Assembly: GCA_950295325.1 (NCBI GenBank)
Contig: OX485804.1
Location: forward strand, 22,444,001-22,508,000
Reading direction: 5' to 3'
DNA length: 64,000 nt
Origin: Polytrichum commune
Taxonomy: Eukaryota; Streptophyta; Polytrichopsida; Polytrichales; Polytrichaceae
Positions within the stretch are counted from its first letter, which is position 1. Each line of letters begins with the position of its first letter. A program made the translations under genes and the position numbers. Under the pieces are notes generated by a model, which searched no databases, was not told where the DNA came from, and saw nothing but the letters and a program-made list of their open reading frames with translations. Positions 12,078 to 59,195 of this stretch are shown here, piece after piece.

Positions 12078-13077
12078 TGGCCGCTTCACACTCTAGCCGT
12101 CCAAGTCAAGAGGCCATGGATTGAATGGGCAACCTTTGTTGAGAGTCCAAAGAAATGGGTTGAAAATAGCCAATAAAATACAGGCATTGGAGCCTTCAGT
12201 CGAGCATAATGTGAACCCTCCAAAGGCCAAGCCCAAAGTCCAAACCCATACCTAAGGATGAAGGAGCATCCCACTTTATTCCATGTCCAAAACAACCCCT
12301 CCAATCTAACGGCCAAGATCTTGTCAGGTTTTTTATTTTTATTACGAACAAGAATCGATAGTCTCCCAACCATAGTTTGGGTTTCCATTCCTATCCAACC
12401 CAAACTTCCTTCGAGACTCCGTCGCCTTGGTCAAAAAGTACTGCCATATAGACATGTTGGAGAGGGACGGCCTTTGGACTTTGGCCTCTAATGTGAAGAT
12501 TCCAGAGGCCGAATTCTTAATTTCTTGCAATATGATTGGTGGAAATCGACAACCTCTCGACCTTTGACCTCTAGTGTGGAGGGTCACGAGACCGAATTCT
12601 TGGTTTCTTGCAATCTGATTGGTGGAAATCGACAGCCTCTCGACCTTTGGCCTCTAGTGTGAAGGGTTGAGAGGCCGAATTCTTGGTTTCTTGCACTCTA
12701 ATTGGTGGAAATCGACAGCCTCGAGACCTTTGGCCTCTAGTGTGGAGGGTTGAGAGGCCGAATTCTTGGTTTCTTGCACTCTAATTGGTGGAAATCGACA
12801 ACCTCTCGACCTTTGGCCTCTAGTGTGAAGGGTTGAGAGGCCGAATTGTTGGTTTCTTGCACTCTAATTGGTGAAAATCGACAGTCTCTCGACCTTTGGC
12901 CTCTAGTGTGGAGGGTTGAGAGGCCGAATTCTTGGTTTCTTGCACTCTAATTGGTGGAAATCGACAGCCTCTCGACCTTTGGCCTCTAGTGTGGAGGGTT
13001 GAGAGGCCGAATTCTTGGTTTCTTGCAATCCGATTGGTGGAAATGGACGGCCTCTCGACCATAGTGTGAATCGGCCC
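12078..13077. mobile_element. Family B Harbinger-like element, 1000 bp, TAA target duplication
   Basis: TAA at 12075-12077 and again at 13078-13080 bound the element exactly. The left end is TGGCCGCTTCACACTCTAG and the right end inverts to GGGCCGATTCACACTATGG. Its 5' half matches the 510-bp copy at 19447-19956, but the 3' half is enlarged by an 83-bp tandem array. It encodes no transposase, so it would depend on one supplied in trans. Confidence 0.8.
12509..13065. repeat. 83-bp tandem repeat (minisatellite) inside family B element
   Basis: The motif CCGAATTCTTGGTTTCTTGC or a variant starts at 12509, 12592, 12675, 12758, 12841, 12924 and 13007, exactly 83 bp apart each time. This gives about 6.7 units. 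Each unit contains TTTGGCCTCTAGTGTGGAGG, a diverged version of the element's own right terminus (GGCCATAGTGTGAA-like). Unit differences are single bases. Confidence 0.95.
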
Positions 13078-13282
13078 TAAGTTAATAATTCCCTCTCTCC
13101 CAACAAACAATTCCGTTTTTTTCTGTTATTGTGCCATGTGGCGGGGTGAGTGCTGAGTCACTCCATTCCTATCAATCAAACATACTTAGGTCAACATGGT
13201 TGTGAAGGTGTGATTGATGATGGGCAGGCAGCAGCATTCTCCCAAATCATCCAAGGATATGCGGAACTATTAGGCATTGTTT

Positions 13283-13400
13283 GAACAAGGGCAGGGCAGG
13301 GCAGGGCAGGACGGCCCCATATTTTCAACGTGCTGGTGGCCATGGCAGCTGAAATATTATTACCGGTAACTTCTTTTTTGGTGCCCGCCCTGCCCTCATG
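13283..13400. repeat. GGGCA/GCCCT-rich inverted repeat
   Basis: GGGCAGGGCAGGGCAGGGCA at about 13287 faces GCCCGCCCTGCCC at about 13384 across an AT-rich centre. The outer flanks (GGCATTGTTTGAACAAGG and the inverse of GTTCAACGCATTCTG) pair weakly. It may be another MITE; boundaries are unclear. Confidence 0.45.
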
Positions 13401-13656
13401 CTCATTCCTTATCAGTTCAACGCATTCTGACACACACTCAGTCCTCTAAATGGTACATACATGCAGAAAAACTAATAAAAACAAAAAAACACACAACACT
13501 GCAGTGTTAAAAAAGAGTATTCGGCAAAGACGATGGAAAGAGTCCTTACCACTACTGTAGTGTATGACCCCTAAGCTCATACAATTATTGTAAGTTTGAA
13601 TGTATACACGACCCAAGGCTTGTGAAGGAAAAAGGTACAATTCACGTGTGCACGTA

Positions 13657-14159
13657 GGGCCACTTCACACATGAGACTGAGAGCCCGTGACCATCACTCT
13701 TCAGGCACTCTCATTGGTGGAAAAGGCGGAGCCGGTCCAAGTTCGCTACTTCACACTACGCTAGAGGGGCCAACGGAGTATGTGAATGCAAGATGGATGT
13801 AAAAGTCTACATGGACTCCTACATGGCATCAAATGGATCATGTTTCATGGTCACTTGGACTATGCTCAAAAACCATCTCTTCGAGGTAGGCCTAACACAA
13901 AACCGGGAGACCATGACACTCCGGACGCTCATGACCGTTGATTTACTCTATTTTATCATGTGTGAGGACTTGCTTGAATGAAAATTCCTTGAAAGAGCAT
14001 TTGGTTGAGGGCCCGGTCACATATGGCTTCACACTGCACTTGAGGGTCCGTGACCACACTACATGATTGTGGAGGTGTGTTGGGACGGCCTTTGGACACT
14101 TTCTTTTGGGCTCTCACGATTTCATGGTCACGGCTCTTGGCTCGTGTGTGAAGTGGCCC
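13657..14159 (+). mobile_element. Family A Harbinger-like MITE, full length (503 bp)
   Basis: Ends GGGCCACTTCACACATGAG and, inverted, GGGCCACTTCACACACGAG, with about 36 bp of imperfect terminal inverted repeat including GTGACCAT. Flanks are GTA (13654-13656) and TTA (14160-14162), one mismatch from a TNA duplication. A 62-codon frame at 13793-13981 is shared with two other copies but looks incidental. Confidence 0.85.
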
Positions 14160-14162
14160 TTA

Positions 14163-15570
14163 TTATACTCATGCTTGTGGAACTAATGAGCTTTTGATTC
14201 TTCATGTCACTAGAAAATCAACACCTTGGTTCAAAAAACAACTGCTTAGGGATAGAATAAATTACTAACATTTGATCGACTTTGGACAGTTTCTTGGCAT
14301 TCAATGATATTTTTCGTTGTGAGGCTCCGGGAGTGATTCCTGCTCGTGTTTCTTTGTTTTTGGTGAAGTCAATTTGTTCATACCAAGTTGGAGTTGCCGT
14401 TATAGGTCGGGCAGGAATCGGGCGAGTTTAAGTTAGATTCTCCCATTTTTTAATGTAACCGGAAAGTCTAGGAGGGTGTCTTTGAATATGAGTTCACATT
14501 TTTCATTTATATATAACTAAAAATCTCCTCATTTTTTATTACCACCTACATGCAAGTGTCTTATCTAGGCATGTTTGCTCCTCTCATCATTCTTGTACTC
14601 CACGTGTAGATTCAAACTCAAAAGATTCTTAAAAGTTTTTTGTGACCTCAAAATAGAAGCTAAAGGAGTGAAATTATTAATTTTCTTTAGGTCATTGACA
14701 TGGGTGTGGGAGATTCCTTCAAAAAGCAAGGAATTTGTCCCCACTTTTGATGACTTTGCGGTTGACTCTACTCCTATCTATAAGTGGACCCTAGTGATTG
14801 GGAGCATGGTAATTGAGTGCTATGAAGCATACCCATGTGAACATTATTCCGGCTTGAAGTGGCTGAAAATTTAGAGTTCTCATGGGATCCAACGTTGGTT
14901 AAGCCCTTGAGGACTAGAAGGCCCAAATGGGCCTCAACACATTCTTTTAAGATAATTATCAGTTTCATGCTGTTTTTTTGTTTGGAACACATGAGGTGCT
15001 TATCACTTGACTAGTTTTCCGTCAAGTAAAGAGATGATTTCACAATCAAGAATCAAACCGCCAACCACTCCGTTCGGTTTGGGTACCTCTCCACTATCAT
15101 CGGGAAGTTTAGGGTCATCTCATATCATTTACTAGCCTCATGTTGTCTTTGTTTAGGGATTGAATTGGCTTTGCCCATAGAGTAGAGTTCTTAGTTTGCT
15201 TTGATTTCTTGCTCATAAATTCACTTGTGCATGAATGTCTCATGTGAGTCATAGAGAGCCAAGCCAAAAATTTGCATCTCCATGTGAGTTGTTTCAGTTG
15301 GATTTGCTTAGCTAGAGATTCATGTTGGAAACTAATAGAGCTAGAAAGAACATAAATACAACTTTGATGTTGCCTCTGGCGTGAGCAATATTGTTGGTTC
15401 ATTTTTTAGTTGGTCTAATCTATACGTAATTTCAAAACGGGCATTACGAGAATTAGAGGGGCCCTGATGATTATTACCTTCTTTCAAAGGTGAACACCTT
15501 GAACATGCATGGACCAGGCACCCGACACCTATTTCCTCCAAGGGCAAGCCCCTAAGTTCCCACATGGTTG
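14163..15570. other. Intergenic DNA with a short dispersed repeat, no gene
   Basis: No recognisable coding region. A segment at about 14985-15120 (CTAGTTTTCCGTCAAGTAAA, then TACCTCTCCACTATCATC) recurs diverged at about 31975-32095 and, in part, near 61685-61735. Confidence 0.4.
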
Positions 15571-15629
15571 GTTGAAAACAATTGGTTCAGTTGGATACCC
15601 CCACTATGATTGGGTAGATAGTAGGTGGT

Positions 15630-15740
15630 AGGGTGCCCCTACAATCAAGTGCTCTTGAAGGTCACCCATCCAAGTACTATTCCAAACTTACGCAGTTTAA
15701 CCCCACATTTCTCATGGGGATTTGGGTTGAGGCCTTGAAT
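15630..15740 (-). pseudogene. 5S rRNA-like pseudogene
   Basis: The + strand GGTCACCCATCCAAGTACTA at 15660-15679 closely matches the reverse complement of the plant 5S rRNA stretch around its internal promoter. In the right order and spacing it is preceded by GGGTGC and CTCTTGAAG, and followed by CGCAGTTTAAC and TTCTCATGGGGAT. These correspond to the 5S end, the helix before it, TTAAGCG and ATCCCATCAGAA. Several insertions and substitutions break the fold, so it is not a working gene. It may be a lone pseudogene or the head of a 5S-derived SINE. Confidence 0.6.
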
Positions 15741-16007
15741 TTAAGCCACCATGTAGATGGAGCTATTGAGAATCTAAGTTAATCCTCACTCTTAATATAA
15801 GGCATCAATGGATGCAAATATAAACAATGAGAAGTCGAGAGCAAGACACACACAAGACAAACTCTTCATTGGAACTCTAAATGATGTGCATGGTTGTTTT
15901 AGGTTGATCGTCTGCTCTACCTCGATAAAGGCCTTCACAATGTTATAAGCACAAAAAGTAAATCATGAAAATATAAGGTCTTCAATGTTCTTTCACATCC
16001 CCCCCTG

Positions 16008-16021
16008 CCCCCCCCCCCCCC
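16008..16021 (+). repeat. Poly-C run (14 C)
   Basis: Fourteen consecutive C after CCCCCCTG. One of eight G or C homopolymers of 12 or more in this window. Confidence 0.9.
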
Positions 16022-16679
16022 AACACACACATAACTTTCTCAAAAACAACATGTGAGGTGTCCCTCATATATTCACCCTTTTTAATTTTCAATTTTTTTT
16101 TCTTCTTCTTATGGAATGCTTTTGCCAAGTCTTGTTTTCTCCCACACCACCACTACCTCATTGTTCATTGTATATGAATTTATGAGGGCTCTATGGTAAG
16201 GCTTGACATTGCTAAGAATGGAAACCACACTCCACAAAGACACATGTTACAATGAGATGAACTAATGTGCTCCACACATATTATCCACTCAACTAGGTTC
16301 AATTGTTAACTCGGCTATAAAAATGCATGTGATCACTTCAATAGAAACATATCTTCACCCTAGTCTTCTAACCTTTCAAAAAATGACCTCTAATTCCAAA
16401 ACTTGAGATGACAATCTAAGTGATTTGTAATTGATAATCGAATGAGGCAATTCCCAATTTGATCTAACTGCCCAATTGGAATGTAGAGTTGGAATGGGCA
16501 GCAATATGTATATGACCTTATTGTGGGCACTTCCAATTCCGCTTAAATTTCTGGCCATTGGAGCGGAGTAATTAAAATTGCTAGCTTTGGTTAGCAAAAC
16601 GAATCACATACTTTTTCGATTTAAGTTTCATAATTTGGAGTTGAGATGCAAATGTTATGAAATATCAACACATCGATGT

Positions 16680-16885
16680 TCTTTCTCTTTAAGTGATCAC
16701 ATAGGCCATCCCAATTGTGTTAATAATCCAGTCTAGTCTGATTAATATGAATTGAGCACCCAATCCAAGCTCATTTGTAACATGCCTCTTTTTGGTGTCC
16801 ATTCCACACTACTCAAACCTTGTTATATACCACTCAAACCTAAGTGTCCAATCAAGAAGAGTGACCACATAATTCCCCCACACAC
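16680..16885 (+). repeat. Dispersed repeat family M, copy
   Basis: Contains GATCACATAGGCCATCCCAA, TTGTGTTAATAATCCAGT, CCTCTTTTTGGTGTCCATTC and CTAAGTGTCCAATCAAGAAG in the family order. Confidence 0.55.
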
Positions 16886-17876
16886 CTTATTACGCTCTCA
16901 GGTAAGTCGTAGTATTATGCACCCTAATTATATGATCCGGTGTGGCATAAATTTGATGAACCATCCTAAATCGTGTTGGTGTTCATAAATTTGTCATGTA
17001 TCACATGAGACGTATGACACCCTCTCTAGTTGCCACCCCCAACAATTGCAAGACAATTAATGCAGGTTGATGATGAATATATAGGACCAAACTAAATCAT
17101 ATGTTTGGTATAGTGATTGGATCATGACATGATCACAAAGTTTCCGACTAAACAAAGTGGAGATGATTCAAATGTTATGAAATTAGATCAAAATTGCAAG
17201 ACTATGCACAAGGCAAACCATTTGGCCTTTCTTGTGTATCGTATGGGTACCTACACACCCAGATGCGAGGCACCGTATGTCAATTGAAGTACGCAGTTGT
17301 ATTGCTGGCAGTTCCAAGTCCACCAAAAAAAAATATTATGGGCGTTGAATCAATTATGGGATTGTCTCATCTAGGTAGCAATTGTGAATTGTGAAGTTTG
17401 TTGTTTTGAGTTTTAGAACCAGAGTTGTGATTTGCAAAATTAAAGAGGGACCCAAAAAAAGAAAAAGAAAAGAAAAATCAACAATGACATAATAGATCCT
17501 CCCAATTGTGTTAACTATTGAATTCGGAATGATGTATAAGGCAAACAACCTTAATTCGGTTCTTTATTTTAATCACACACCTTTATTTGAGTGGTATGTG
17601 GTTCGGTGCAGCTCCAAGAACGGATATAAAGAAAGACACGTGTTTAGAAATCAAGAGGAAAGTGGTTGTGGACTCAATTTGGATTTGTTGACCGTTTCTT
17701 ACTAATTACATGTTTCATATCCCAAGAGAAAGTGGGATAGTCGGGAAAATCTATCCATTTAAGACCCATCTACCTTATCCATTTTAACACACATGGTCCA
17801 ATCTCATCACAAAGCATGTCTTGCGGTGTCCATTTCTTGAATACAAGCCTTGCCACAAACCACGTAGGACCACTTT

Positions 17877-18581
17877 GGGCCACTTCATCAGACACAAGCT
17901 CATGACCGTGACCATGTGATTGGGAGGGCCTTTGACTATGACACGGTCTGCTGGAATTTGCGTTAGCCCTAACTCTAGGAGGTGGGCCTAATGCAAATAT
18001 TGACAAAGAATGAAACATTACTCACATTCTGCCATGTAAGAATCCATGTAGACTTGTCACTTCTTGTGGCCCTTAGACCTTCGCCTTCTAATGTGAAGTG
18101 AACTTGGACGGTCCCGACCTTTTCAGCCAATGAGAGATCTTAGAGCTAGCTAGTTCTCATGGGTCGCAATCCTAAGTTCCAAACCCCTTGAGGTCAATCC
18201 ATGTGATCTCTGCCATTGAGAACATAGAAGCTAGGACTTCCACTTCACACGCGGCCTCAAGTCCTATGTCCCAAGTGTGACACGGATGCCTACACGACAC
18301 CAACTTTTTGGAGACGAGGCTCGAGACTTGTGTCGAGAGTCGACTTCACCAAAGAGGTCGACCCAACGCTCAACACCACCCCTGCAAAATGTTTGTACAC
18401 AAAATCATCAAGACCCCAACTTTGATGATAATCAACCATATTTTAGTGATTCCTCGAGGCTCAAAAGTCGTGTCGGGACTTGGGACCCCCCATCCATGTG
18501 AACCGACCCTTAGAATGGAACGCAATGCAATGCAAAGCAACGGTCACGGGCCTCGAGTCTCGAACATGTGTGAGGTGGCGC
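17877..18581 (-). mobile_element. Family A element (reverse, degraded) split by a family C element
   Basis: GGGCCACTTCATCAGACACA at 17877 and the right part GGTCACGGGCCTCGAGTCTC to about 18581 are the two ends of one A element in reverse. The A body runs to CAGCCAATGAGAGA at about 18137, is broken by the C insertion at TTA, and resumes with AATGGAACG. The 3-bp flanks no longer match. Confidence 0.75.
18144..18509. mobile_element. Family C Harbinger-like MITE nested in family A, TTA duplication
   Basis: TTA at 18141-18143 and 18510-18512 flank a 366-bp element. The right end inverts to GGGTCGGTTCACATGGATGG and the left end keeps GTTCTCATGGGTCG. It aligns along its length with 19394-20259 minus that copy's insert. 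Inside, GAGGCTCGAGACTTGTGTCG and ATGATAATCAACCATATTTT are shared. Confidence 0.75.
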
Positions 18582-19393
18582 ACGATCAAGCATAGAAGGC
18601 GCTTGGTTAAGAAGGAGTATGATAAGCATAGAAGGAAGAGTCATGGTACGTTCGGCCCACATAGGGTTTGTTAGTGCCTCTCCTCCGTACGCCGACAAAC
18701 ACACGCATGCATATACTTAAGTTACTTCCAACGGAGACTGGTGTTCACACATGCACTGGCCATGCAGCAGTACCTTACCTGCAGGCAAGCCCATGTTACT
18801 GCACCACTCATTCATTCCCCAGGGGAACAATAATAAGAAGCTGTGCTGATTGACCCAATCAGGAGGCAACAGGAGCACCGCTCGATGAAAGAAAACACAA
18901 CGACCAAACGATTTCATATCTTTTTACACAATATTGTAAACATATATAGGAGCCTGTATAATACAGGCTACATGGAATTCTCGGATGCCATGCCTCTCGC
19001 CTCTCAATCATCCCATACTATAACGCCCTGAAATAGTAGTATGCAGCCTGGATGGTTTTTCTATTCTTTTCTGTTCTGTCCTGTTCTGTTTGAATTCTGA
19101 AAAGTGGAGTTGACCCTGGAGTTAAATTTGAGTACCAGGGATTAGTTCCGAGTGGAGTTATCTGAGATGAATCTATAGATAGGGAGTCCAGGTTTTTATG
19201 TTGGGTGGATGCATGAAAGGTACGCTTATATGTGAGAATTCCCCACAGCCCATAAGACATGAGGCTCTACCTCCTTACTTATCAAAGGATATGTGTTACA
19301 TAGTATGTGGATATGCGTGCACTTGTTTTCTAGCAAGAGGATGGTATTCAACTTGGATCTCCTTGAGCAAGGCTACACCGATTATGGTATTTA

Positions 19394-20259
19394 GGGCCAG
19401 TTCACATGGGGTCTTACATTACTTGAGGTCCATCCGTGCAATCTAAGGGATGCTTCACGTTATGGTCGTCCAAGTCGAGTGGTCGTGGGATCGAATGGCC
19501 AAACTTTGTTGAGGGTCCAAAGAAATGGGCTGAAAATACATAGCCAATAAAAATTTATATATACAGGAAGTGGAGCCTTCGGCCGGGCATAGTGTGAAGC
19601 TTCCAAAGGCCAAGCCCAAAGTTCAAAGGAAGAAGGAGCACCCCACTTTATTCCCTGCCCAAAACAACCCCTCCAATCTAATGACCAAGGTCTTGCTAGT
19701 TTTTTCTTTTTTTATGAAAAAAAACCGACGGCCTCCCAACCGTAGTTTGGGTTTCCATTCTTGTCCGACTCAAACCTCCTCTGAGAGTCCATCACCTTGG
19801 TCAAAAAGTACTGCCATGTAGGCAGTTTGGAGAGCGACGGGCTTTGGACTTTGGCCTCTAGTGTGAAGGGTCGAGAGGCCGAATTCTTGGTTTCTTGCAA
19901 TCTGATAGGTGGAAATCAATGGCCTCTTGACCTTTGGCCATAGTGTGAAGCGGCCCTTAGTTGTTGAGAGCTTGGAAGCTAGGACTTACCACTTCACACG
20001 GGGTCCCAAGTTCCAAGTATGACATGATGTCTACATGGCAACATTTTTGGAGGTGAGGCTTGGGACTTGTGTTGAGAGTTGGGTTGAGCAAAAAAGTCCC
20101 GTGGACATTTTTGCTTTAAATAATCAAGATCAGACTTTAATGATAATTAACCACATTTTTATGGTTTCTTGAGGCTCAATTGTTGGGACTTGGCCTCCAT
20201 GTTAGGACTCGCTACCATGAGTGGGACTTGGGACTTGGGGACTTCATGTGAACCGGTCC
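19394..20259. mobile_element. Family C element, copy 2, interrupted by a family B element
   Basis: Starts GGGCCAGTTCACATGGGGTC after TTA (19391-19393) and ends ATGTGAACCGGTCC. The body matches 18144-18509, but a 510-bp B element lies between CGTGCAATC and GTTGAGAGC. Without the insert the element is 356 bp. The right flank ATA differs from TTA by one base. Confidence 0.75.
19447..19956. mobile_element. Family B element (510 bp) nested in family C; single 83-bp unit
   Basis: Right end inverts to GGGCCGCTTCACACTATGGC; left end GGGATGCTTCACGTTATGG. Flanks TAA (19444-19446) and TTA (19957-19959) are both TWA but not identical. It aligns with the 5' half of 12078-13077 and has only one 83-bp unit next to its right end. 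It therefore shows the element before array expansion. Confidence 0.75.
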
Positions 20260-20261
20260 AT

Positions 20262-20812
20262 AGTGTTACATACACTATTTGCGAAAGGCATAAACTAGAT
20301 CCCTAGAGATCTCAAAGTGTTGCGTTCGCTAATTGTCAATATGATACTATTCATCAACATAAGGTGGAAAATTATTTACACTATGACATTAGGCATAGCA
20401 CATTGGGATGCTTGAGTATATAGTTTGTGTTTTAGTATCCAAGGGGAATGCATTATTGAGCACACTAACTGCAAGTGTCATGTGTTCACATTTTAGTATG
20501 TAAGAGGAAGATATCGTTGAGCATACTAATGTGAGGTGTCATTTGTGTGCACTTTATTCAACTTGTACACCATTGTGGACCATGTGGATACACCTCATAA
20601 CATTATTGAACAAAATCATGCCAAGTTATAAGCACACTTGAACACCAAGTGTCATGAGGTGACACTAATGATGAACTTGTTAATCATTGGTGTACACCTA
20701 GCATATGCCTCAAAATAGGTTCAACGACACTATTACACATGTGCACTAAATACCATAAACATTGTAGTGGACACAAGTCATAATCTCTTCAAGAAGAGGA
20801 GGATCAAACAAT
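20262..20812 (+). repeat. Dispersed repeat family J, copy 1
   Basis: Shares with 34725 and 52190 the order AACTAGAT-CCTAGAG, GATACTATTCATCAACATAA, GCACATTGGGATGCTTGAG, AAGGGGAATG, AAGTGTCATGTGTTCACATT, CAACTTGTACACCATTGTG, GACACTA-ATACCATAA. It starts directly at the right end of the C element. Non-coding. Confidence 0.6.
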
Positions 20813-20951
20813 CAAGTGTTGTTGTCCATGATGCCACGACATGAACTTGAGCAAGGTGTATATCTTAAATTGGAAAAGGGGAATATGAAACCCCTCATGA
20901 ACAACATTTAGTGTATGAAAAAATTTGATTACATGCAATAAATATGGGGTT

Positions 20952-21099
20952 GCACAACATTACTCAACGATTTGGGCCCTTGTAATATAACATTGGGATG
21001 TTGGGAGCTTAGTCATAGTTTGAGTCTCCCTAATCATCCCACTATTATATTCAAGGGGCCCACAAAATAAGCGTTGAGTGCTGAGTAATGTTCTGTGAC
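20952..21099. mobile_element. Foldback MITE (family O), copy 2
   Basis: Arms GCACAACATTACTCAACG and TTGAGTGCTGAGTAATGTTC are inverse, and both contain the TTTGGGCCC/GGGGCCCACAAA segment of the copy at 5692-5852. It differs from copy 1 by many substitutions. Confidence 0.6.
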
Positions 21100-22265: not shown

Positions 22266-22269
22266 TAGA

Positions 22270-22400
22270 CAACCCTTGTTTGGTTACCTCTCTTATTAGA
22301 ACACTTATATTTGAGTGGCATGTGGTTTGGCATGGCTCCAAGAACAAATTCCACAAAGACATATCTTCAATAGAGATTGGACTAGTTGCTCAAAATATGA
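22270..22400 (-). repeat. Dispersed repeat family M, copy (reverse)
   Basis: TTATATTTGAGTGGCATGTG, GGCTCCAAGAACAAATTCC and GAGATTGGACTAGTTGCTC are the reverse of the M order seen at 49160-49330. Confidence 0.55.
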
Positions 22401-22604: not shown

Positions 22605-22835
22605 AGAGCAGTGTGGGGGAGAGTTTCGGGCATAATCTGCTGAGATCCTAGTGTTTCCCAAGTGCAACCGGTTACATGGTGATATGTGACGGTTTCCCTT
22701 CATTAAAATGGGGTAGATTCCATGAGTTCCTCCAAACCGGTCGGTGAGTCGCCTGAAGCCGTGAGCCATCAACCGGTCATTTCACAAACCCAGCCGGTTC
22801 ATCTGCAAGTAGCAGCCGGTTCTCCCCGTTCCTGG
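22605..22835 (+). repeat. Dispersed repeat family L, copy at the CSLA promoter edge
   Basis: L series in order: GTGTGGGGGAGAGTTTCGGG, GCAACCGGTTACATGGTGA, GGGGTAGATTCCATGAGTTC, CATCAACCGGTCATTTCAC, CAGCCGGTTCTCCCCGTTCC. It is the most GC-rich copy and retains four CCGG-containing motifs. It ends about 1.5 kb before the CSLA ATG. Confidence 0.6.
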
Positions 22836-30220: not shown

Positions 30221-30719
30221 CGGCCACTTCACACATGAGGCTGAGGGCCCGTGACCATTGCACTTCAAGCACTCTCATTGGTGGAAAAGGCGGGGCCGGT
30301 CCAAGTTAGCTTCACACTACGCTTGAGGGACTAATGGAGTAAGGGAATGCAAGATGGATGTAAAGTCTAGATGGATTTCTACATGGCATCAAATGGATCA
30401 TGTTTCATGGTCACTTGGACTACTTTCAAAAATCATTTTTTGGAGGTAGGCCTGACACAAATCTAGGAGAACATGGCACTCCGAAATCTCACCACCGTTG
30501 ATTTAGTATATTTCATCATGTGTGGGGACCCCATATTGAATAGAAATTTATTGAAATAACATTTGGCTGAGGATCCGGTCACATATGACTTCACACTACA
30601 CTTGAGGGCCCATGCCCACACTATGATTTTGGAAGTGTCTTGGGATGGCCTTTGGACACTTTGTTTTGGGCTCTCACAATTTCATGGTTATGGCTCTTGG
30701 CTTGTGTTTGAAGTGGCCC
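30221..30719 (+). mobile_element. Family A Harbinger-like MITE, full length, TTA duplication
   Basis: TTA at 30218-30220 and 30720-30722 flank 499 bp. Ends are CGGCCACTTCACACATGAGG and, inverted, GGGCCACTTCAAACACAAG. The 62-codon frame of other copies is broken here by an early TAG. It is the closest full element downstream of CSLA. Confidence 0.9.
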
Positions 30720-34724: not shown

Positions 34725-35262
34725 AATGTATTTAATGTCACGTACACTATATCTGAAGGGCCTAAACTAGATGCCTAGAGGCCTCATAGAGTCACGTCCA
34801 CTAATTGTCAAAATGATACTATTCGTCAACATGAGAAACTTATACATGAAAATTTATTTTCATTACGACATTTCCTATAGCACATTGGGATACTTGAGAT
34901 AACATTTTTGTGTTTTAGGGTGCAAGGGGAAGATGTTCTTGAGCATACGATTGGCAAGTGTCATGAATTTACATTTTAATAAGCAAGCGGAAGAGTTTAT
35001 TAAGCATACTAACACCAAAGTGTTATTTCTGTACACCTTTAGTCAACTTGTAGAACATTGTGTAACATAGGCATACACCTCTTAACACCATAGAATGTAG
35101 TCAGGCCAAGAGATTAGTAAGCCCACTTGAATACCGAGTGTCATGAAGTGACACTAATTGTGAAGTTGTTGCTCATTAATGTAGCCTAGCATACGCCTCA
35201 AAATAGGGTAGGTGTCACTATTACACATGTGACACAAAATACCATACCCAATGTAGTATGAG
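34725..35262 (+). repeat. Dispersed repeat family J, copy 2
   Basis: Uninterrupted copy: GTATTTAATGTCACGTACAC at the left, TAAACTAGATGCCTAGAGGC, GCACATTGGGATACTTGAGA, and at the right ATGTGACACAAAATACCAT, which is roughly the inverse of the left end. This suggests a MITE-like structure of about 540 bp. Confidence 0.6.
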
Positions 35263-37473: not shown

Positions 37474-38290
37474 TGGCCACTTCACACACGAGACTGAGAG
37501 CCCGTGACCATTCCACTTCAAGCACTCTCATTGGTGGGAAAGGCGGAGCCGGTCCAAGTTCGCTTCTTCACACTAAGGTAGCGGGGCACATTCCCGCTCG
37601 GGTCTTTAAACCGCTCACTAGACCTATCCAAACAAGAGGTACATTATAGCTTCCAACCTCAAATTTCTATGTAATCATGGTGTACATTTTTGGGGTGAGT
37701 GGTTTTGGGTACCCCTATGAGTTCTCCTTCCAAAATATATAACTATTTCAATATTAATCCAAAATTAATTATTCCAATTGGTCCAATTTCCAATGTACTT
37801 TGCACATCTTCCAAGATTGATTCCCCCTTAATAACTCCCCAATGAACATGCCAATCTGAAATTCGAGCGGGAATGTGCCCCGCTACCTTACGCTTGAGGG
37901 ACCGACGAAGTATGTGAATGCAAGATGGGTGTGAAGTCTACATGGATTCCTACATGGCATCGAATGGATCATGTTTCACGGTCACTCGGACTATTTTCCA
38001 AAAACCATCTCTTGGAGGTAAGCCTAACACAAAACCGGGAGGCCATGGCACTCCGAGCGCTCACAACCGTTGCTTTATTCTATTTTATCATGCGTGAGGC
38101 CATGCGTGAATAGAATTCATTGAAATAGCATTTCGTTGAGGGCCCGGTCACATATGACTTCACACTGCACTTGAGCGTCCGTGACCACACTAGATGATCG
38201 TGGAGGTGTGTTGGGACAGCCTCTGGACACTCTCTTTTGGGCTCTCACGGTTTCATGGTCACGGCTCTTGTCTCGTGTGCGAAGTGGCCC
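37474..38290 (+). mobile_element. Family A MITE split by a Stowaway-like element
   Basis: Left end TGGCCACTTCACACACGAG, right end CTCGTGTGCGAAGTGGCCC. Without the 313-bp insert it is about 500 bp. The 3-bp flanks (CAA and GGA) no longer match. The 62-codon frame (37925-38113) is open here. Confidence 0.85.
37576..37888. mobile_element. Stowaway-like MITE (family E) nested in family A, TA duplication
   Basis: The terminal inverted repeat is perfect for 25 bp, beginning AGGTAGCGGGGCACATTCCC. TA lies at 37574-37575 and 37889-37890. Removing the element and one TA restores the A sequence CACACTACGCTTGAGG exactly. A 2-bp TA duplication fits Tc1/mariner-type MITEs. Confidence 0.9.
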
Positions 38291-43936: not shown

Positions 43937-44414
43937 TGGCCACTTCACACATGAGACTGAGAGCCCGTGACCATTACACTTCAAACACTCTCATTGGTGG
44001 AAAAGGGGGAGCCAATCCACGTTCACTTCACAGTACACTTGAGTGACTAATGGAGTATGTGACTGCAAGATGTATGTAAAGTCTACATGGGTTCCTACAT
44101 GACACCAAACGGATCATGTTGCTTGGTCACTTGGATTATTTTTAAAAACCACCTCTTGAAGGTAAGTCTAACATAAAACTTGGAGACCATGGCACTCCAC
44201 ATGCTCACAACTGTTGATTTATTCTCTTTTTCCATGCGTGAGGACTCGCATGAATAGGGTTGAGGGCGCGGTCACATGTGGCTTCACACTACACTTGAGG
44301 GCCCATGGCCACACTACATGATTTTGGAGGTGTGTTGGGATAGCCTTTGGACACTTTCTTTTGGGCTCCCACAATTTCATGGTCACGGCTCTTGGCTCGT
44401 GTGTGAAGTGGCCC
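43937..44414 (+). mobile_element. Family A Harbinger-like MITE, TCA duplication, inside repeat L
   Basis: TCA at 43934-43936 and 44415-44417 bound 478 bp. Ends TGGCCACTTCACACATGAG and, inverted, GGGCCACTTCACACACGAG. The interior has lost about 25 bp relative to other copies. The insertion lies between GAACTTCA and AATTGGTTCG of L. Confidence 0.9.
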
Positions 44415-49159: not shown

Positions 49160-49330
49160 ATGGTCATATATATCTCCCCAATTATGTAAACTATTGAACT
49201 TCAAATGGTTATAATTTTTTGAGCATGCAATCCAATCTTCTTCAAACACGTATTTTTATTGGGTGTCCGTTCTTGGAGCCACACTAAATCACATGCCCTC
49301 AAATATATATAAGTGTCCAATAAAGCTCAG
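49160..49330 (+). repeat. Dispersed repeat family M, copy
   Basis: CTCCCCAATTATGTAAACTA, GAGCATGCAATCCAATCTTC, GGTGTCCGTTCTTGGAGCC and ATATAAGTGTCCAATAAAGC in order. Confidence 0.55.
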
Positions 49331-50489: not shown

Positions 50490-51005
50490 ACTTGTCAAAG
50501 TCCCCTCCAAGACTTTGGCCAAATTACCAACATTTCTAGAGGACTTTGGAGAATATACCTCAAATCAATGAAGAAGAAACCAAAAAGATGTCAACATGGA
50601 ACCGGTCGGAATTCAAAACACGAGGATCTCGACCCGATGATGCCCGAAAACCTCCCCCCGGACACCGGAGTGATGCAAACTTCATCCAACTATGAGCACA
50701 TTCATCTCAAACTCGACCCACCGCTAGTTACACTTGAGAAGTAACCGGTCAACGTCCCTCCAAGACTTTGGCCAAATTGCTAACATTTTTTAACTAGAGG
50801 AGTCTTGAGAGTATACCTCAAATCAATGAAGAAGAAACCAAAAAGATGTCAACATGGAACCGGTCGGAATTCAAAACAAAACACGAGGATCTCGACCGAT
50901 CATGCTCAAAAACCTCCCCCCCCCCCCCCCCGACACCGGAGTGATGCAAACCTCATCCAACTATGAGCACATTCATCTCAATTTCGACGACTATTAAGCT
51001 CTTTC
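50490..51005 (-). repeat. Tandem pair of family L repeats (reverse)
   Basis: Two L-derived units of about 255-270 bp lie head to tail. CCTCCAAGACTTTGGCCAAA occurs at 50504 and about 253 bp later, and GTGATGCAAAC recurs at 50672 and 50941. Identity between the units is high, including GAAGAAGAAACCAAAAAGAT. The second unit carries a C16 run (50916-50931) where the first has only CCCCCC. Confidence 0.85.
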
Positions 51006-51603
51006 GGGCAATTGGGTAAATTCCATCCATGACAAACACGATTGGCTTTCATTTCCTTTTCTTTTTATCTTTTTTTGGGCAACGAATTCTTTCTTTAAAA
51101 AAAGGGAACAATTGTGGAGGGTGGCCATTGGAGTGGGAAACCTTGGGTCACGGCGTTCATTGCGGCCTTGCCTTGCCCAATGATGCTTGGGGTGGGGAAT
51201 CTACCTTACTACACTTGTATGATCGATCTACGTGGTGACCAAGGGGTCCCGACTCCCAAAGGGGCTATCAAAGGGGTGTTTATATAAGCACCGTAGTCGT
51301 GTAGTGTGGAGACCGATGATTCAATGATTGCGTGATTGATGAGCCCAGAGCCCAGAGCCTTCCATGTGGATTGATCCCAACTATTGACAAAGCAAGGGAC
51401 CTAGTGTGGATGGTACCTACTTACTATTGGGCCGGGCTATTTGTCAACAACTCCTCCTTATTGGGTCGGCACATGTACGGGGGAAGAAATTGTTAAATAA
51501 ACCCGTGCACCAATAGGAAGGAAGAGAGGATTTTTAGGACACCGGTTTTGACATTAGGAGGACATCAATGGTCAAGCATGATATGCACGACACCAACTAG
51601 AAA

Positions 51604-51951
51604 CTATACCAAAAAGTCTTATTATTGTGGGCCGCAGTAGTTTTCTACAGCCCATGCTAATTTTCTTCATGAGAATCGATGCATGCCACGTAAATTAGAA
51701 CGAAAATTTTTCCAGAAGAAAATTAGTGTGAGCCACAAAAAGGATTGCGTTTCTAGAAAATTAATGTGGGTGATTATTTTATTTTGTGCTACTTTTGTTC
51801 TATAACCTATGTCCAATGTGTTGGTTGGAAGTGTTCATGAAGATTTGGGGGGAAACTCGGGGTCTTGGACCCACATTAATTCCACCTTGAGTAGAAAATT
51901 AGTGTGGCCCATGCTAATATTCCACCTCACTAATAGGACTATCTAGTGTAA
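51604..51951. mobile_element. MITE-like element (family H, copy 3)
   Basis: The right end inverts to ATTACACTAGATAGTCCTAT; the left is CTATACCAAAAAGTCTTAT. Contains GTGTGGCCC and TTGGACCCACATTAATTCC segments shared with 40929-41215 in inverse order. Confidence 0.55.
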
Positions 51952-52189
51952 TGTTTAGGTAACTCTAGACATTTTGGCCAATTCCGGACAAACTCGGTGG
52001 TTGATATCATCCTCTGAATCCCCTGAGTATTGTGACTTCTTTCCACAACTTTGTTGTTGTGTGTCATATGTGGCTTCTATTTGGGCTTTTATTTTTTCAT
52101 CCTTCATTTATGACCATATAGTTGTGTGTGTTGCATTATGTTCTTGTTTGTTATCACACAACACATGCATAATTCCAGACTTATCCAAA

Positions 52190-53060
52190 GTTTTGAAATA
52201 CCCTAATGGTAGTTTAGATGCCTAAGAGGTCTCAAAGTGTTATGCTTATTAATTGCCATTATGCCCAGGGGTGGATTCTTCAAGCCACATATAAACTGAC
52301 ATGAGTGCAATAAGGGGTATTATTCAAGGGGTTAGCGTTCATAGTATACATAAGGGAGAGGTATTGGTTTTCTCCAGTGTGAGAAAACAATTTAAAAGGG
52401 CTATTAAGAATCTGGAAGGGGGCCCTAAGGTTTAGAGAAAAAAACGACAATAGATGTGTTAGTTTCATCCAAGCTACGTTTTCATCCATTATTGGCATAT
52501 GGCGATGATTCCCAATGACATGTATATGCAATAACATCCTATATATTTCATGCTTTATATTTCTTTTGGTGTAGTGGAGGCATTTTTTACATCAAACTAA
52601 AAAGATAGTACAAATACACGATTCCATTCTCTAGCCTACCATTAGTATGTATATATTTTTTTTCACTATAATTGCATGGTCACCCACCCACATCACTTAG
52701 GTTTCCAATGAAGAATCCACCCACCAAGCCAATATGATACTATTCATCATTATAAGTAACTTATTGAGTGAATAAGTATCTACATTATGACATTTAGCAT
52801 AGCACATTGGGATGCTTGAGATGATAGTTTTGTGTTTTAGTATGCACGGGGAAGATATTATTGAGCACACTAACGGCAAGTGACATGTGTTCACATTTTA
52901 GTATGTAAGAGGAAGATGTCATTAAGAATACTAATCGCAAGTGTCATTTGTGCACACTTTAGTCAACTTGTAGACCATTGTGTGACATAAGTATACACCT
53001 CATGACACTATTGAACATACAATTACACATGTGACACTAAATGCCATAAATGGCGTAGTA
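52190..53060 (+). repeat. Dispersed repeat family J, copy 3, interrupted by a hAT-like MITE
   Basis: J runs from TAGTTTAGATGCCTAAGAGG to TTAATTGCCATTATG at 52263 and resumes with CCAATATGATACTATTCATC. Without the insert it matches J copies 1 and 2 through ACACTAAATGCCATAAA. Confidence 0.65.
52264..52728. mobile_element. hAT-like MITE (family K) inside repeat J, 8-bp duplication
   Basis: CCATTATG (52256-52263) and CCAATATG (52729-52736) flank 465 bp. Left CCCAGGGGTGGATTCTTCA and right TGAAGAATCCACCCACC are inverse over the inner 13 bp. An 8-bp duplication and a CAGGGGTGG-type end are characteristic of hAT elements. J copies 1 and 2 show the empty site. Confidence 0.75.
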
Positions 53061-53426
53061 GGAAGTGGGGGTCTTTTTGACAAGGGCCCTTGACCCAAAA
53101 AAAAAACTTTTGTGACGTGCCAGTAGTATGAGTGTGGGGCACAAAAGACACTTTTCATTTGACAAGGGCGATCATTAAAACACAATTCCATTTACATGAG
53201 ACATCAGTTGACGGGGTCATGTCATAATGACGGCTTGTGTCCAATGGGGAGTGTGTTCTAGGCCCAACAATCTCAGCAATGTGTCCATGGGCATGCAAAC
53301 AAGAATAAATAATATTTAGTGATTTTCTTCCATCAATGGGAGGTGTGGTATGTCCTTATTATGCAAAAGGTCCATGTAGATCTTATCATCTTGAAGATTT
53401 AATGTCATAAAGACACCCTCTTCCTA

Positions 53427-53802
53427 CTACACTAAATATTGTATTTAGTGTCATATTGTATTTCATTTCAATGTAGTAACTATTGTAATGGCACTTCTTA
53501 TGAATAAGTCTGCAAGTATTGTCATCCCAACTTACTTTGATTGTAACAAAGGTTGGCTTATTTTGCATCCCAACATTTAATGTAAGTAATAAGTTATCAT
53601 GGATGATTGAAGTTTGATGACAAATTACCTAGTATGTGACAAAAATTGCAACATTGTAAATCTATAATGCCCAAAAAAATTCTATGAGGAATGACAATTG
53701 TTAGGGTTACATTTAGTATCGGTGACACTACACAAGCGGTTTACATTTATTATTGAGCAAGACAAATAGAATTGGTGACACTAAGTACAATATTGAGTGT
53801 AG
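53427..53802. mobile_element. Stowaway-like MITE (family I, copy 4)
   Basis: Left CTACACTAAATATTGTATTT preceded by TA. The right end inverts to CTACACTCAATATTGTACTT and is followed by TG, one base from TA. Ends match the element at 60557-60782. Confidence 0.65.
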
Positions 53803-53825
53803 TGATGTGTAATTGGTTGACATAA

Positions 53826-55312
53826 GTGGCATCATTAAGTGTAAGCACGGAAGTGTTCTTGGCCATGCTTCTAGTCATATACCTTGGCCAAGTAATTTTT
53901 GCCAAACGTATAAAGCTCAACCCTGCCAAGGTAGAGGTTGTTCAAAAGGTTTTATGTACATGCCAATGTGGAATGCCTATAGTTTTTCTTCAGCCTTGCA
54001 AACCACTACAGACATTTAATCAAAGGTTTTGTTACATAAGCATAACAATGAGCACATACCTTTTGCTGGGTGGGCCACATAGTTGTAGGAGTAAAAGCAT
54101 AACATCTTGCAAATTTTTACACTCCATGCTACAATGTTAGCTTGATGATGTAGGAAGTCCCTTATTATGTTGAGTAATGTTATGAGCATGTCTCATGTAT
54201 ATCAAACTTCTTTGGATTCAGGAAGCTTATAGACGGACTTGCATTGAACAAGCTACACTAGAAGCATTGGAATTTGGCCCTTTGTTCTAGTCCCACTTTA
54301 TTCATCATCTTAATCCCTCCTTCCTTGTACAACTAGATGCCTCACGTGAAGCTCATATGATGCCATTATAGTCGTTCTCAAATTTTGTTGACCATTCTAA
54401 ACTCAATGGTCGTCTATGCCTTTGACATGCTTTTCAAAGCAAAGAAAAATATGCTATGATTAATAAAGAAGGATTGGCCTTCATGTTTGTTGTGGAGCAT
54501 TTTGGGCACTCCATTCATGGTTCTCATTTTGTGGTTAGAATTGACCGTATTCCATTGAAGGCCTTAAAAACATCATGTGACCCTAATAGTCATCTTGTCC
54601 AATGGGCTTTCATCCCCATTGAGCTATATTTTTGAGATGCTATACAAACTTATCACAAATGTTGATGCATTAACTTGCACAAAAATCATAAATCTTGAAC
54701 TATACTCCAAATATGATACCCTTTAGTCATTATGCATTCAATGTGATTAATGGGCATAAATTTGTTATTGATTCCACAAATTTCTTAAGAAAATCGGTAG
54801 AAATATAGCCCCTTTTGTCCAAAGATTGTGAAGGAAGTGTGCAACTACTCTTTGGTGGAATCACAATGCAACACTCTTGTCCAATTGAATAACTAGTTGA
54901 CATCGGTCCAATGTTTTGTAAGATGTTGATGGATGTTGTAGCATTATAAATGAACATCAAACACATTACAACTAGCCTATATCACCCATGATGCAATGAT
55001 CTAACAAAGTGTGTTAACAAAGGTCTGTGCTTCTTGCATAAGAAAAATGGCTTGTATGAAAATTAATGGCACAAGATGCTACACTAGATCTTGTTTGCTT
55101 ACTAGGCAAGCATGCACTCCAACACCACTTACTCCTCATTTGAGCTATGCTTTGGTAGGAAACCTCCCTTGCCGATCTACATGGTTCAATTGTGAGGCAA
55201 AGTGGCAACACCAATTTCGTTTGAGCAACACTTGACCTCGTTTGACAAGATGCGGCATCACATCATGAAGAATGCTCATGAATTCAAATGGCACAAGCAA
55301 TACAAAGCTTGA
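53826..55312 (+). pseudogene. Decayed Ty3/gypsy LTR-retrotransposon pol (RT end, RNase H, integrase C-term)
   Basis: Segments in pol order lie on the + strand, broken by stops and frameshifts. At 53826-53945 a YLGQ...LNPAKVEVVQK stretch matches the Ty3/gypsy RT end (YLGHxxxxxGIxxDPxKVxxI). At 53998-54036 ANHYRHLIKGFVT matches YYRRFIxxF. At 54315-54356 PSFLVQLDASREA matches the RNase H start. At 54435-54611 KEKYAMINKEGLAF through HFVVRIDRIPLKAL to SHLVQWAF matches the later RNase H. At 55133-55192 SSFELCFGRKPPLPIYMVQL matches the integrase C-terminal region. No LTRs were identified. Not functional. Confidence 0.75.
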
Positions 55313-55330
55313 TGACCACCCAACGACCAC

Positions 55331-57845
55331 AAGTTGTTTCCACCCAAATGACTATCACCAAGCTTAATTTTTGCTAGGAAGAGATTGGGCGCATTATTGA
55401 AGAACATTGTAATCAATCTCTTCTCAATCCATTAAACCATACGCCATTATTCTAGATGAGGTGCATGGGGTTAAGGTTCAGTTACACCTGCAGGTGGGTA
55501 AAAACGTAGACAAACATCGAATAGCCCCATGGTTTAAATTTTTTCAAATCCAAATGGACCCTTGATTTGAAGTCAAATTTCAATTTAGTTTAGTGGGACC
55601 CAATTGAATTGGATTGACAACATACTTAGGATAGGCATGGTCTTACGACACCTCAAGGTGGGTGTTATGAACCAAGATCCATATTCCAGTGCAATGTCTG
55701 AACGAGCGATTGACCCTAAGAAACTTATGGTGGTGGGCATGCTCTCAACCTGGTGGATTATGCTACACTAAATGCACAAAATGTATTTAGAATTCAGTGG
55801 GAAGGCTTCTCAAATCTTTAGTAAGAGTCAAGTAACTCCACTCCCAATTTCTTGGGTAGTGAACACCTCTTAACAACATATCTTAAAACATATCTTAAAA
55901 CTTTAGATTAATATCATTGGAATGATGTCACTCGACTTGACCAAGCATGATAATTTTGTACAGATGAATTCATGCTATAACCAAGATGGTCCACAATATT
56001 TTCACATAGGTAGTCAACAATACAAATCATCCTATTCTATACCTATGGTATCATTGTGGCCAATCATTTTTGCTAGTGGGTGTAATAAGGTGAGACTCAG
56101 AGAGGCTCAGACAGGCTTTTGGGAATGAATATGGAGTACCGAGCCGCATATGTAGCAGGTTGTCCACCATGATTTGGCAACTTGAGATACTATTTGATTG
56201 AGCTCAAGAAATTAAAACACCATCACAAATCAATGAAGAGGGAGGGAGAACAGGCTGCTAGTGACATAAACTGGTTGAAGTTCAGGACTTCAGGAAAATT
56301 ACGGATGATTTAAGAGGAACTATTTAGTTTAGAATATAAGCGTATCTCAAATTGATACACCCTAAACTCCACAATATCAACTTCCATAATGTCACTAACT
56401 CTTGAATATCCTGAAACCCTAAGGAGTAGATTTTCTCAATTCAAACCTCACTCCTTATTGTCACATTTCTTTCCCTTATATCACGGGTTATGTTGTTAAT
56501 GCATACCACCAAAGAAGTCAACCCACACCCTCGCATTGTGCCACGCGTCTTGCATTGCTCCATGTGTTTGCACTTTTCAAATTGGATCGATATTTTGAGG
56601 GGTTTGGTGGTCACTGGTGTGTTGGGGGTTTTGGTGATGCGAAGGAGGGTTTAAGGTTTTGTAGTTTAGAGGTAGTTGGTGAGGAAGCTTGGATTGATCA
56701 AGTTTAGGAAGAATTTGTCGCTCAATACTCCTCCCAAAATACTTGCAAGATTCCAACAACATGTGTTAAATTCTTTTTACAACTGTAGGAGTCAAATGTG
56801 ATTTTAAATATGCAAAACAATTGATCGTGGGGAGTTCGGTGAAGAGAAGTTGTGTTCTACCATGGAGCTGGTGGCACAAAGTGCTCAATTGCCAGGGACT
56901 CCGATGTACGAAGTTGGCAAGCGTGGGAAGCAAAACCTCAATATATCATTGATTGATTCGTCAAAGAGCTTTGAGATAGTGGGAGCAAGAACTTGGCAAT
57001 TTGTGAAACTATGAATTTCAATCTCCACACAAACCTCCTACACATTCAAGGGGTTGCACACCATTTTTCCACTTCAAGGGTTTAGCATTCAAGCAAGTCT
57101 AGATTCTAACACCAACAAAGATTTGAAGTTATTCCTCAAATACAAAACACCTAGGTGTAGAATCCTTGTTAAAGAAACTTGAAAATCAGCTTTGGTTCAA
57201 CGTCCATCATGGAAAATGACTTATATTCTAGTGTGATATTCTAGTGATATTCTAGTGATGGGATTCATGAGGTGAGAGTTTGAGGTGGCAACTGTGTTGG
57301 GCATGATTTTAGGGTTTAGCATATGTTCATGAAGAGATAATCATCATTATCATTATCCACAATGATCTAAACTTGCTTCTTCAAATTTGCCACATTCCCT
57401 ACCATGTGGAATGTGGCAAGTTGTGTTGATTGCGTCCTTACGGCATTCTCTATCTTGTATTCTCATCTCATTTGAGAGGATCAATTCCAATACATCGCCA
57501 AGTGATCTGCATCACCTGATATCATTCGTCGCGCAAACGAGACAAATTTTCCGTACACATTGGATTCCATCCACGCTCACTGCAATCAAACCGTTGGCCA
57601 ATCACCTCTCATTCATGACGCATGTACATCTTGTTTCTTCAAATCTTGAGAGTGAAACCTTTAAGCACCTAACATGACCAATAGTGAGCGCCGATTACAA
57701 CAATACAACGCTGCATTTTGTGTTATTCCATGATGTCACATGCTACACTAATTTTCTGTCATCACACATCCATATCAGCACCACAAAAACTCCATAATAT
57801 CACGTGCACTTTGGTTCCAGAGGTGTGACACTACGGAGTTTATAG
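55331..57845. other. Intergenic DNA, no gene identified
   Basis: May contain the 3' part of the Ty3/gypsy relic, but no LTR or tract was recognised. A partial reverse L copy lies at about 56255-56340 (ACTGGTTGAAGTTCAGGACT). A duplicated TATTCTAGTG sits at about 57230-57257. Confidence 0.4.
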
Positions 57846-57849
57846 TGTA

Positions 57850-57960
57850 AAGGAAATCCGAAAGAAGTGAACATGTAACCGGTTGGACTTGGAAACACTA
57901 GGGTTTCGACTGGTTATGCCCCAAAACCTCCCCGGACATTGTCACATATCCAGCTGTAGC
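57850..57960 (-). repeat. Dispersed repeat family L, partial copy (reverse)
   Basis: ACATGTAACCGGTTGGACTT, GGAAACACTAGGGTTTCGAC and CAAAACCTCCCCGGACATTG are the reverse of the L 5' third. Confidence 0.6.
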
Positions 57961-58320
57961 ATGGATTTGTGAGCTCCATGTGTCCATGTCGAGTTTCGGG
58001 TTCACAATATTTTTATCTCTTGACGGTGCTCCTCTGTTCACTCCTCAATTGCGATGATGAATAATTGGAGATGAAATGGCCACTGCTAATAATAAGTTAA
58101 TGCCTTGCTAAGTCAGGTGGTCAAACAACAGAGGAAAATGCTCTATATATGTAAACTATGTGATAGCGGTGACTTCGTCCTCGCCGAATTTGAGAAATCT
58201 AGAACAGGATGAAGAATCCAAGGTCTTGGGAATCTGGATGAATTTTCCATTGAAATGTGCATGGCATCCGTTTGCTTTCTATATATGTACAAATCACTTT
58301 GCTAATAATCAGAACCCTCA

Positions 58321-59195
58321 GGGCCACTTCACACACGAGACTGAGGGCCGGTTTACACTACGGTGGAGAAGGCCTCCGGTCGGTCAAGAATGCTTGGCCA
58401 AGACATGGTTATATGAGGCAAATGGTGGATGTGCCAAAGAAGAATTAGAGGCAATAAAATATTGTTATTGAGTTGGGCTTCTCCGGCCTCTTGAGGCCGG
58501 ACAAGAAACTCCTCCTCCGGAGAAGCCCAACTCCAAAAAGTGTTGCCATGTAGGCGGCCATGTCATTTTATCATCCATGAGAAAAGTTCACCACCATTGT
58601 TTTCTTCACCTAGTGTAAACACCCACAGTCAAGAGTTGCATTTTCGACCAATCACAATTGAGAAACGCCCTTCTTTTCATGACCGGTGGACTTCTCCACC
58701 GTAGTGTAAACCGGCCCTGAGAGCCCGTGACCCTTACACTTCAAGCACTCTCATTGGTGGAAAGGCGGGGCCGGTCCAAGTTCGCTTCACACTATGATTG
58801 AGGGACCAACGGAGTATGTGAATGCGAGATGGATGTAAAGTCTACACGGATTCCTATATGGCATCAAATGAATCATGTTTCATGGTTACTTGGATTATTT
58901 TTCAAAAACTATCTCTTGGAGGTAGGTCTAATCCAAAACCGGGAGACCATGGCACTCCGAACGTTCACAACCGTTGATTTATTTTATTTTATCATGTGTG
59001 AGGACGTGCATGAATAGAATTTCATTGAAATGGCATTTGGTTGAGGGCCCCGTCACATATGGCTTCACACTACACTTGAGGACCTGTGACCACACTACAT
59101 GGTCTTGGAGGTGTGTTGGGACAACCTTTGGACACTTTCTTTTGGGCTCTCACAATTTCATGGTCACGGCTCTTGGCTCATGTGTGTAGTGGCCC
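58321..59195 (+). mobile_element. Family A MITE, TCA duplication, split by family D
   Basis: TCA at 58318-58320 and 59196-59198. Ends GGGCCACTTCACACACGAG and, inverted, GGGCCACTACACACATGAG. Without the 373-bp D insert and its duplication it is about 499 bp. The 62-codon frame (58829-59017) is open. Confidence 0.9.
58345..58717. mobile_element. Family D Harbinger-like MITE nested in family A, TGA duplication
   Basis: The terminal inverted repeat is perfect for 27 bp, starting GGGCCGGTTTACACTACGGT. TGA at 58342-58344 and 58718-58720. Removing one TGA and the element restores the A junction GAGACTGAGAGCCCGTGAC. A strong internal hairpin (58470-58532) pairs GTTGGGCTTCTCCGG with its inverse. Confidence 0.93.

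Follow-up and report, generated by a model that had tools for sequence, protein, structure and literature searches.

Four transposon families with near-identical ends in Polytrichum commune, read as Tourist-like PIF/Harbinger elements

A 64-kb stretch of Polytrichum commune DNA (C2:22444001-22508000 of a 407.8-Mb genome; hereafter the window) carries short mobile elements of four families, A to D, that differ inside and yet end alike in GGGCC-NN-TTYACA. What kind of transposon are they, and does one transposase or do several move them? We consider it very likely that all four are non-autonomous Tourist-like PIF/Harbinger (PHIS) elements, each derived by internal deletion from a related longer element that codes for a DDE transposase and, on the opposite strand, a Myb/SANT-like protein. 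At the level of sequence this reading draws on the shared ends, the 3-bp target duplication, longer elements with the same ends that contain transposase genes and the deletion relationship of family D. The families, together called the clan here, are new, of a known, abundant but ordinary kind of mobile DNA, and leave knowledge of the superfamily unchanged. Below, C1, C2 and C7 are contig labels and L followed by a number denotes a fetched stretch.

Ends and target duplications

The pattern GGGCCNNTTYACAY, with at most one mismatch, matches the window 22 times where 1.1 matches are expected, and none of 100 shuffles reaches that count. Three of the matches (14009, 38140 and 59045) are internal motifs of family A that resemble its terminal inverted repeat (TIR). 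The window holds ten complete and two damaged elements with these ends, which confirms both the shared termini and the figure of at least ten copies given in the original prediction. No open reading frame (ORF) of 150 or more amino acids (aa) starting from ATG, GTG or TTG was found within the window.

Among the eleven elements with both ends, the 3-bp flanks are identical in six, differ by one base in three and give no duplication in two; all lie on the forward strand unless noted. TTA flanks a family A element at 30221-30719 and a family C element at 18143-18509, whose left end is altered and is read as a 4-bp duplication. TCA flanks the A elements at 43937-44414 and 58321-59195, TAA (12075-12077 and 13078-13080) the 1000-bp family B element at 12078-13077, and TGA the 373-bp family D element at 58345-58717, nested in the A copy at 58321-59195; all four predicted duplications are thus present. 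One base off are the flanks of the A element at 13657-14159 (GTA/TTA), of a C element at 19394-20259 (TTA/ATA) and of the B element that interrupts it at 19447-19956 (TAA/TTA); an earlier listing of 19394-20259 is corrected by this second element. Flanks without a recognisable duplication belong to the A element at 37474-38290 (CAA/GGA), split by a foreign insert at 37576-37888, and to a degenerate A copy on the reverse strand (TTT/ACG; 17877-18581, limits approximate) that encloses the C element at 18143. A partial A copy on the reverse strand (7518-7752) keeps a single end, with TCA adjoining. In order of nesting, D, C and the foreign element lie inside A copies and B lies inside a C copy.

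Two of these copies have structure of their own. The foreign insert is 313 bp long, has the TIR AGGTAGCGGGGCACATTCCCGCTCG and is flanked by a TA duplication. In the 1000-bp B element the right part (12479-13060) is a tandem array of seven units of 83 bp (91% matches), and an end-like GTGTGRAG motif occurs in most of them; the B copy at 19447-19956 is without this array.

The empty site of family D can be read directly: three of the four other complete A copies have GAGACTGAGAG and one has GAGGCTGAGGG, with TGA present once. Removal of D together with one TGA leaves an A copy that reads like the others, which backs the TGA duplication.

For a wider sample we paired innermost ends across the window and 22 fetched stretches, which gave 41 pairs, or 40 once a C/B cross-pair was removed; every stretch comes from C1 and was selected through listed terminus hits or their surroundings, so that the sample is not random. 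Identical 3-bp flanks occur in 22 of the 40 pairs (TTA 9, TAA 8, TCA 4, TGA 1) against 1,603 of 80,701 (2.0%) in a shifted control, and the 18 pairs without a match include false pairs due to the internal TIR-like motif of family A. TWA (W, A or T) accounts for 17 of the 22 perfect pairs and TSA (S, C or G) for 5.

The genome-wide search and flank tabulation proposed with the original prediction gave 8378+8368 = 16,746 exact termini, where a reversed control pattern gave 75+70 = 145. Their flanks read TWA at 6232+6225 = 12,457 ends (74.4%), TSA at 976+1003 = 1,979 (11.8%) and otherwise at 2,310 (13.8%), leaving 14,436 with TNA. Among 100 listed TSA places, 17 adjacent plus/minus pairs within 4 kb were counted by eye, and all 17 are concordant (TCA..TCA or TGA..TGA); 15 span less than 1.3 kb, one spans 2.0 kb and one (C1:16364491/16368001) is not a single element. 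This concordance argues that TSA duplications are real, and TCA and TGA are true minority targets.

Could the clan belong to the NuwaII group, with its C-TNA-G targets, and so fall outside PIF/Harbinger proper? C precedes TNA at 4110+4140 = 8,250 of the 14,436 TNA ends (57%), while C makes up 20% of window bases, and a right-hand G stands in 17 of the 22 perfect pairs. A left-hand C, however, is found in just 10 of those 22, and TWA forms 86% of TNA ends (12,457 of 14,436), which is closer to the TWA of PIF/Harbinger; C-TNA-G is thus a preference only, and we regard placement with NuwaII as unlikely. The TNA target in C-TNA-G was published for NuwaII in 2015, its authors leaving 3 and 5 bp undecided (PMC4482050). 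In our sample a 5-bp CTNAG duplication fits only 7 of the 22 pairs and the other 15 match over 3 bp but not in the 5-bp frame, which favours 3 bp. The claim that TCA and TGA broaden the usual TWA target therefore stands as regards the minority targets themselves and falls as regards novelty, given the earlier NuwaII publication.

The first base of the element also varies. Four left ends in the window (12078, 30221, 37474 and 43937) start with T, C, T and T instead of G and keep the remaining GGCC; in the 22 perfect pairs G comes first at 17 left ends and at every right end, in stretches chosen through G-starting hits. Mutation is the simplest and the likely reading, ahead of a special variable first base, but leaves the one-sidedness unexplained.

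Longer elements with the same ends

If the clan consists of deletion derivatives, longer elements with the same ends should carry its genes. For family D such an element is complete at L036:335-4066: it is 3732 bp long, has D ends and TTA on both sides, and codes for a transposase matching PF13359 (E 1.3e-32) whose frame is broken by one in-frame stop. Window D corresponds to its positions 1-118 (96.6%) and 3492-3732 (94.2%), an alignment that makes family D the product of internal deletion in an element of this type. A copy in L035 has an open 478-aa transposase frame that fits PF13359 far better than PF04827 (1.5e-29 against 6.6e-6), had no match in a PDB search and lies in a stretch with one clan end, the second not being found within that stretch; the same stretch holds a 694-aa ORF that by impression is retroelement gag-like. 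Genome matches place another uninterrupted D-type frame at C7:32001607-32003040 (92%) and, at C1:3763562-3767073, a D-end pair with TAA on either side of a transposase match (86%). A 1304-bp element at L026:3822-5125, with D ends and TAA on both sides, retains the N-terminal portion of a transposase of PIF type (weak alone, E 8.6e-4); its coding DNA has at least 40 matches in the genome (best 40 of 235 candidates), and two adjoining PF13359 hits were read. The D transposase itself has at least 91 (best 89 of 1990 candidates). We read 950-970 bp upstream of eight of these paralogues for TNA-GG and judged the ends by eye: four have an exact clan end, two a near variant (GGGGCGGTTTACACC, GGCCCTCTTTACACTAG) and two none.

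Elements of similar length are tied to other families. A 3426-bp element at C2:67883788-67887213 and a 3379-bp element at C1:50377932-50381310 both have clan ends, TAA on both sides and open frames, of 529 and 496 aa, respectively; their single-locus transposase parts match PF13359 at 6.8e-29 and 1e-28. A 533-bp miniature inverted-repeat transposable element (MITE), of which L012 holds a copy, corresponds to the 3426-bp element with its interior deleted (86.7% and 95.6%), and window B (19447-19956) aligns to the 3379-bp element as far as the right end (69%, E 2.7e-26). The long element that resembles family A, C1:1350440-1353358, is bounded by two A-like ends (80.8% over 52 bases; 67.6% over the terminal 245), each with TTA adjoining, and encloses a fossil transposase whose best match is the D transposase (E 2.8e-27). 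Among the long elements read, none bearing a transposase was found for family C, whose membership rests on its ends, duplications and a block of interior shared with the other families.

The opposite strand of the long elements carries the second ORF. It matches PF13837, a Myb/SANT-like model, in two pieces in the L036 element (E 1.2e-5 and 0.013) and at 5.9e-5 and 3.7e-5 in the 3426- and 3379-bp elements. Around positions 35-88 of the model the matches reach 26.1, 23.8 and 24.5 bits in the three elements, where Pfam's cut-off is 27; two of the three have a further match to positions 2-37 at 16.3 and 14.1 bits. Of four opposite-strand pieces compared from the 3426- and 3379-bp elements, one matches no Myb model. 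The predicted full-length partner was accordingly found, as 3.4-3.7-kb elements with a PIF-type DDE transposase and a second ORF whose Myb/SANT resemblance is weak.

The transposases also decide the branch. The genome has at least 150 matches to the PF13359 profile (best 150 of 990 candidates) and at least 151 to the Pong-type PF04827 (best 150 of 780). We take GGCCAGTCACAATGG to be the mPing terminal repeat, and family C ends read GGGCCAGTTCACATGGGG, so that by their ends alone, and with so many Pong-type matches at hand, the elements might pass for Ping/Pong relatives. The sequence itself can be read off primers in PMC4561436. The clan transposases, however, are of PF13359 type (those in L045 and L046, like that in L035, match mainly PF13359 rather than PF04827) and only 17-22% identical to the four Pong-type transposases read, and the one complete Pong-type element among those four loci, at L032:2343-6656, has other ends (GGGCATCTGCAG). 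Ping/Pong membership is thus highly improbable in spite of the mPing-like ends. Even more remote is CACTA or any other superfamily that makes 3-bp duplications: the length of the duplication is all that speaks for it, and the ends begin GGGCC rather than CACTA/G and enclose PF13359 transposases.

Assignment to PIF/Harbinger, as originally proposed, therefore holds, and it now rests on transposases of DDE_Tnp_4 type inside elements with the same ends: two for D (L036, L035), one B-like, one of the 533-bp family and the A fossil. The 3-bp duplication is mostly TWA, with TSA in the remainder, and the clan elements are Tourist-like in being short and non-coding with inverted repeats, D being a deletion derivative. 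Harbinger and IS5 transposases are kin, and a weak NCBIfam match to IS5, far under its cut-off, is in line with this.

Several other candidates were set aside or stand apart. A 3.5-kb A-end pair at C1:16364491-16368017 is no autonomous A element: the 1.5 kb read inside contain the end of another A copy and no transposase. The L030 transposase lies between other ends (GGGCCTTGCCAGAC), and beside that in L029 there is a single exact clan-like end (L029:6070, flank TCC), with no matching second end or duplication. No transposase was found inside L010 (1621 bp) or L011 (2651 bp), which have clan ends. A decayed Tc1-like transposase at L019:7274-8305, which matches PF01498 and PF13358 under their cut-offs, lies between clan ends at 6758 and 8775; the flanks of these ends mismatch, so the remains may not lie in one element. 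The Pong-type element in L032 is 4314 bp long with a TTA duplication, and its transposase score and 489-aa frame recur at five places in the genome, itself included, among the matches listed, which suggests that it may belong to a recent burst.

Kinship of the families and their mobilisation

Are the four families related beyond their tips? With 20 bp cut from each end and 60 shuffles per comparison, five element pairs rise above the shuffles: C-D (z 15.9), A-D (8.1), the family C element C1 with D (6.4), D-B2 (6.3) and A-B (4.9). The other eight cross-family pairs have no interior likeness over shuffles (z -0.3 to 2.1), and no comparison with control elements E and F stands out (z at most 2.4). 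A block at 58523-58566 in D is the reverse complement of family C 20019-20061; all seven window copies of its core TGCCATGTA (TACATGGCA) fall inside elements, with A, B, C and D each represented. CTTCACAC is found 27 times within the 5.66 kb that the elements make up with their ends, against a single copy in the remaining 58.3 kb. Taken together, block and pair scores suggest kinship among the families, chiefly by way of D, and the description of four families with different interiors needs amending: the interiors are mostly distinct, but some pairs have a short block in common.

This kinship bears on the proposal that one transposase mobilises all four families, which would then differ only as substrates. 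The ends are near-identical outside two or three bases, and both the common block and the enrichment of CTTCACAC would suit such a shared enzyme. The genome suggests otherwise. The clan transposases of D, B and the 533-bp type are only 48-58% identical to one another, and they sit in elements with distinct end variants that match different MITE families. In a tree of nine transposases (midpoint root; long-branch warning for L029 and the Pong rows) the three form one clade with support 99/99, each with its own end variant; they are 38-42% identical to the L030 and 26-28% to the L029 transposase, and the D, D, D, E columns are invariant across all nine. Related, family-specific transposases are therefore likelier than one for all, and we give the single enzyme a somewhat smaller chance than the NuwaII placement.

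Each MITE family most plausibly represents a swarm of deletion derivatives from its own PIF/Harbinger lineage. We envision that the Myb-like protein and the transposase would bind the GGGCC..TTYACA ends, that element and target would be cut with a 3-nt stagger at C-TNA-G-like sites and that gap repair would leave the TNA duplication, each family depending chiefly on the transposase that belongs to its own lineage, with all lineages in one clade. By analogy with mPing (PMC4561436), the likely route is a staggered cut at the 3-bp duplication and then precise repair. More than 16,000 exact ends together with open frames suggest fairly recent activity. A broader picture, which we offer tentatively and hold to be somewhat less than an even prospect, is of a PIF-type clade whose lineages, all in a single genome, have each drifted to a separate two-base TIR variant and a separate MITE swarm, with a relaxed TNA target.

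A number of observations weigh against derivation of all four families from such longer elements. Interior likeness is at chance level in most family pairs, family B is only about 69% like its long relative, the A-type long element is a fossil with 450 bases between L048 and L020 unread, and family C lacks a transposase-bearing counterpart among the elements read. Every Myb-like match lies under Pfam's cut-off, and no more than half of the eight D paralogues have an exact clan end. TCA and TGA make up a minority of targets, and some of the 1,979 TSA ends must have arisen from TWA by mutation. Nothing shows present-day activity.

The clan offers a worked case in which sequence, and not the look of the ends, links MITE families to longer elements that bear transposases; judged by its ends alone, the clan would have been placed in the wrong branch, Ping/Pong. 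With their open frames, the long elements allow tests of how closely related transposases distinguish near-identical ends and how strict the TNA target is. If lineages did drift as pictured above, their end variants would form a natural series for mapping the transposase and Myb residues that read the ends and the tolerance of the middle target base.

Neighbouring features and known systems

Outside the clan, the window holds a glycosyltransferase gene at about 24.3-28.6 kb, presumably CslA-like, in which two of three exon-like frames tested match Pfam models of glycosyltransferase family 2; by this gene the window reads as plant DNA. A 415-bp element at 59483-59897 has 49-bp inverted repeats (96%) and TGGTAT on both sides. 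One dispersed repeat is present in three diverged copies without clan ends (20364-20743, 34846-35231 and 52768-53033), and another, around AACATGTAACCGGTTGGACTTGGAAACA, lies at 50571, 50829, 57848 and 59343 and in reverse at 22655 and 43816. An Rfam scan of the window gave no match at gathering scores.

A literature search of partial coverage on the termini, Harbinger TNA and TCA/TGA duplications met no description of the clan. Its closest counterparts are PIF/Harbinger elements and their Tourist-like MITEs (PMC2213677), with which it shares 3-bp duplications that are mostly TTA/TAA, a G-rich TIR, a DDE transposase with a second ORF, and internally deleted copies. In contrast to Medicago MtPH-E, with its TIR GGGCCTGTTTG.. 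in the same paper, the clan has TTYACA where MtPH-E has GTTTG, and TCA and TGA duplications as a regular minority. The likeness to NuwaII extends beyond the C-TNA-G preference to a TIR beginning with GG and to DDE and Myb/SANT ORFs, as described in PMC4482050; the clan differs in the dominance of TWA and in the better fit of 3 bp than 5, and the likeness is drawn apart from transposase clades, the tree holding no NuwaII reference. Finally, the clan resembles mPing, Ping and Pong of rice in its outer bases and departs from them in having partner transposases of PIF rather than Pong type. In PMC4561436, C or G in the middle of the duplication had a small effect on mPing transposition in yeast, and 1 of 46 insertions of TCA-flanked mPing lay in TCA; against that 1 of 46, the TSA share of the clan, 5 of 22 pairs, is higher (p 0.012).

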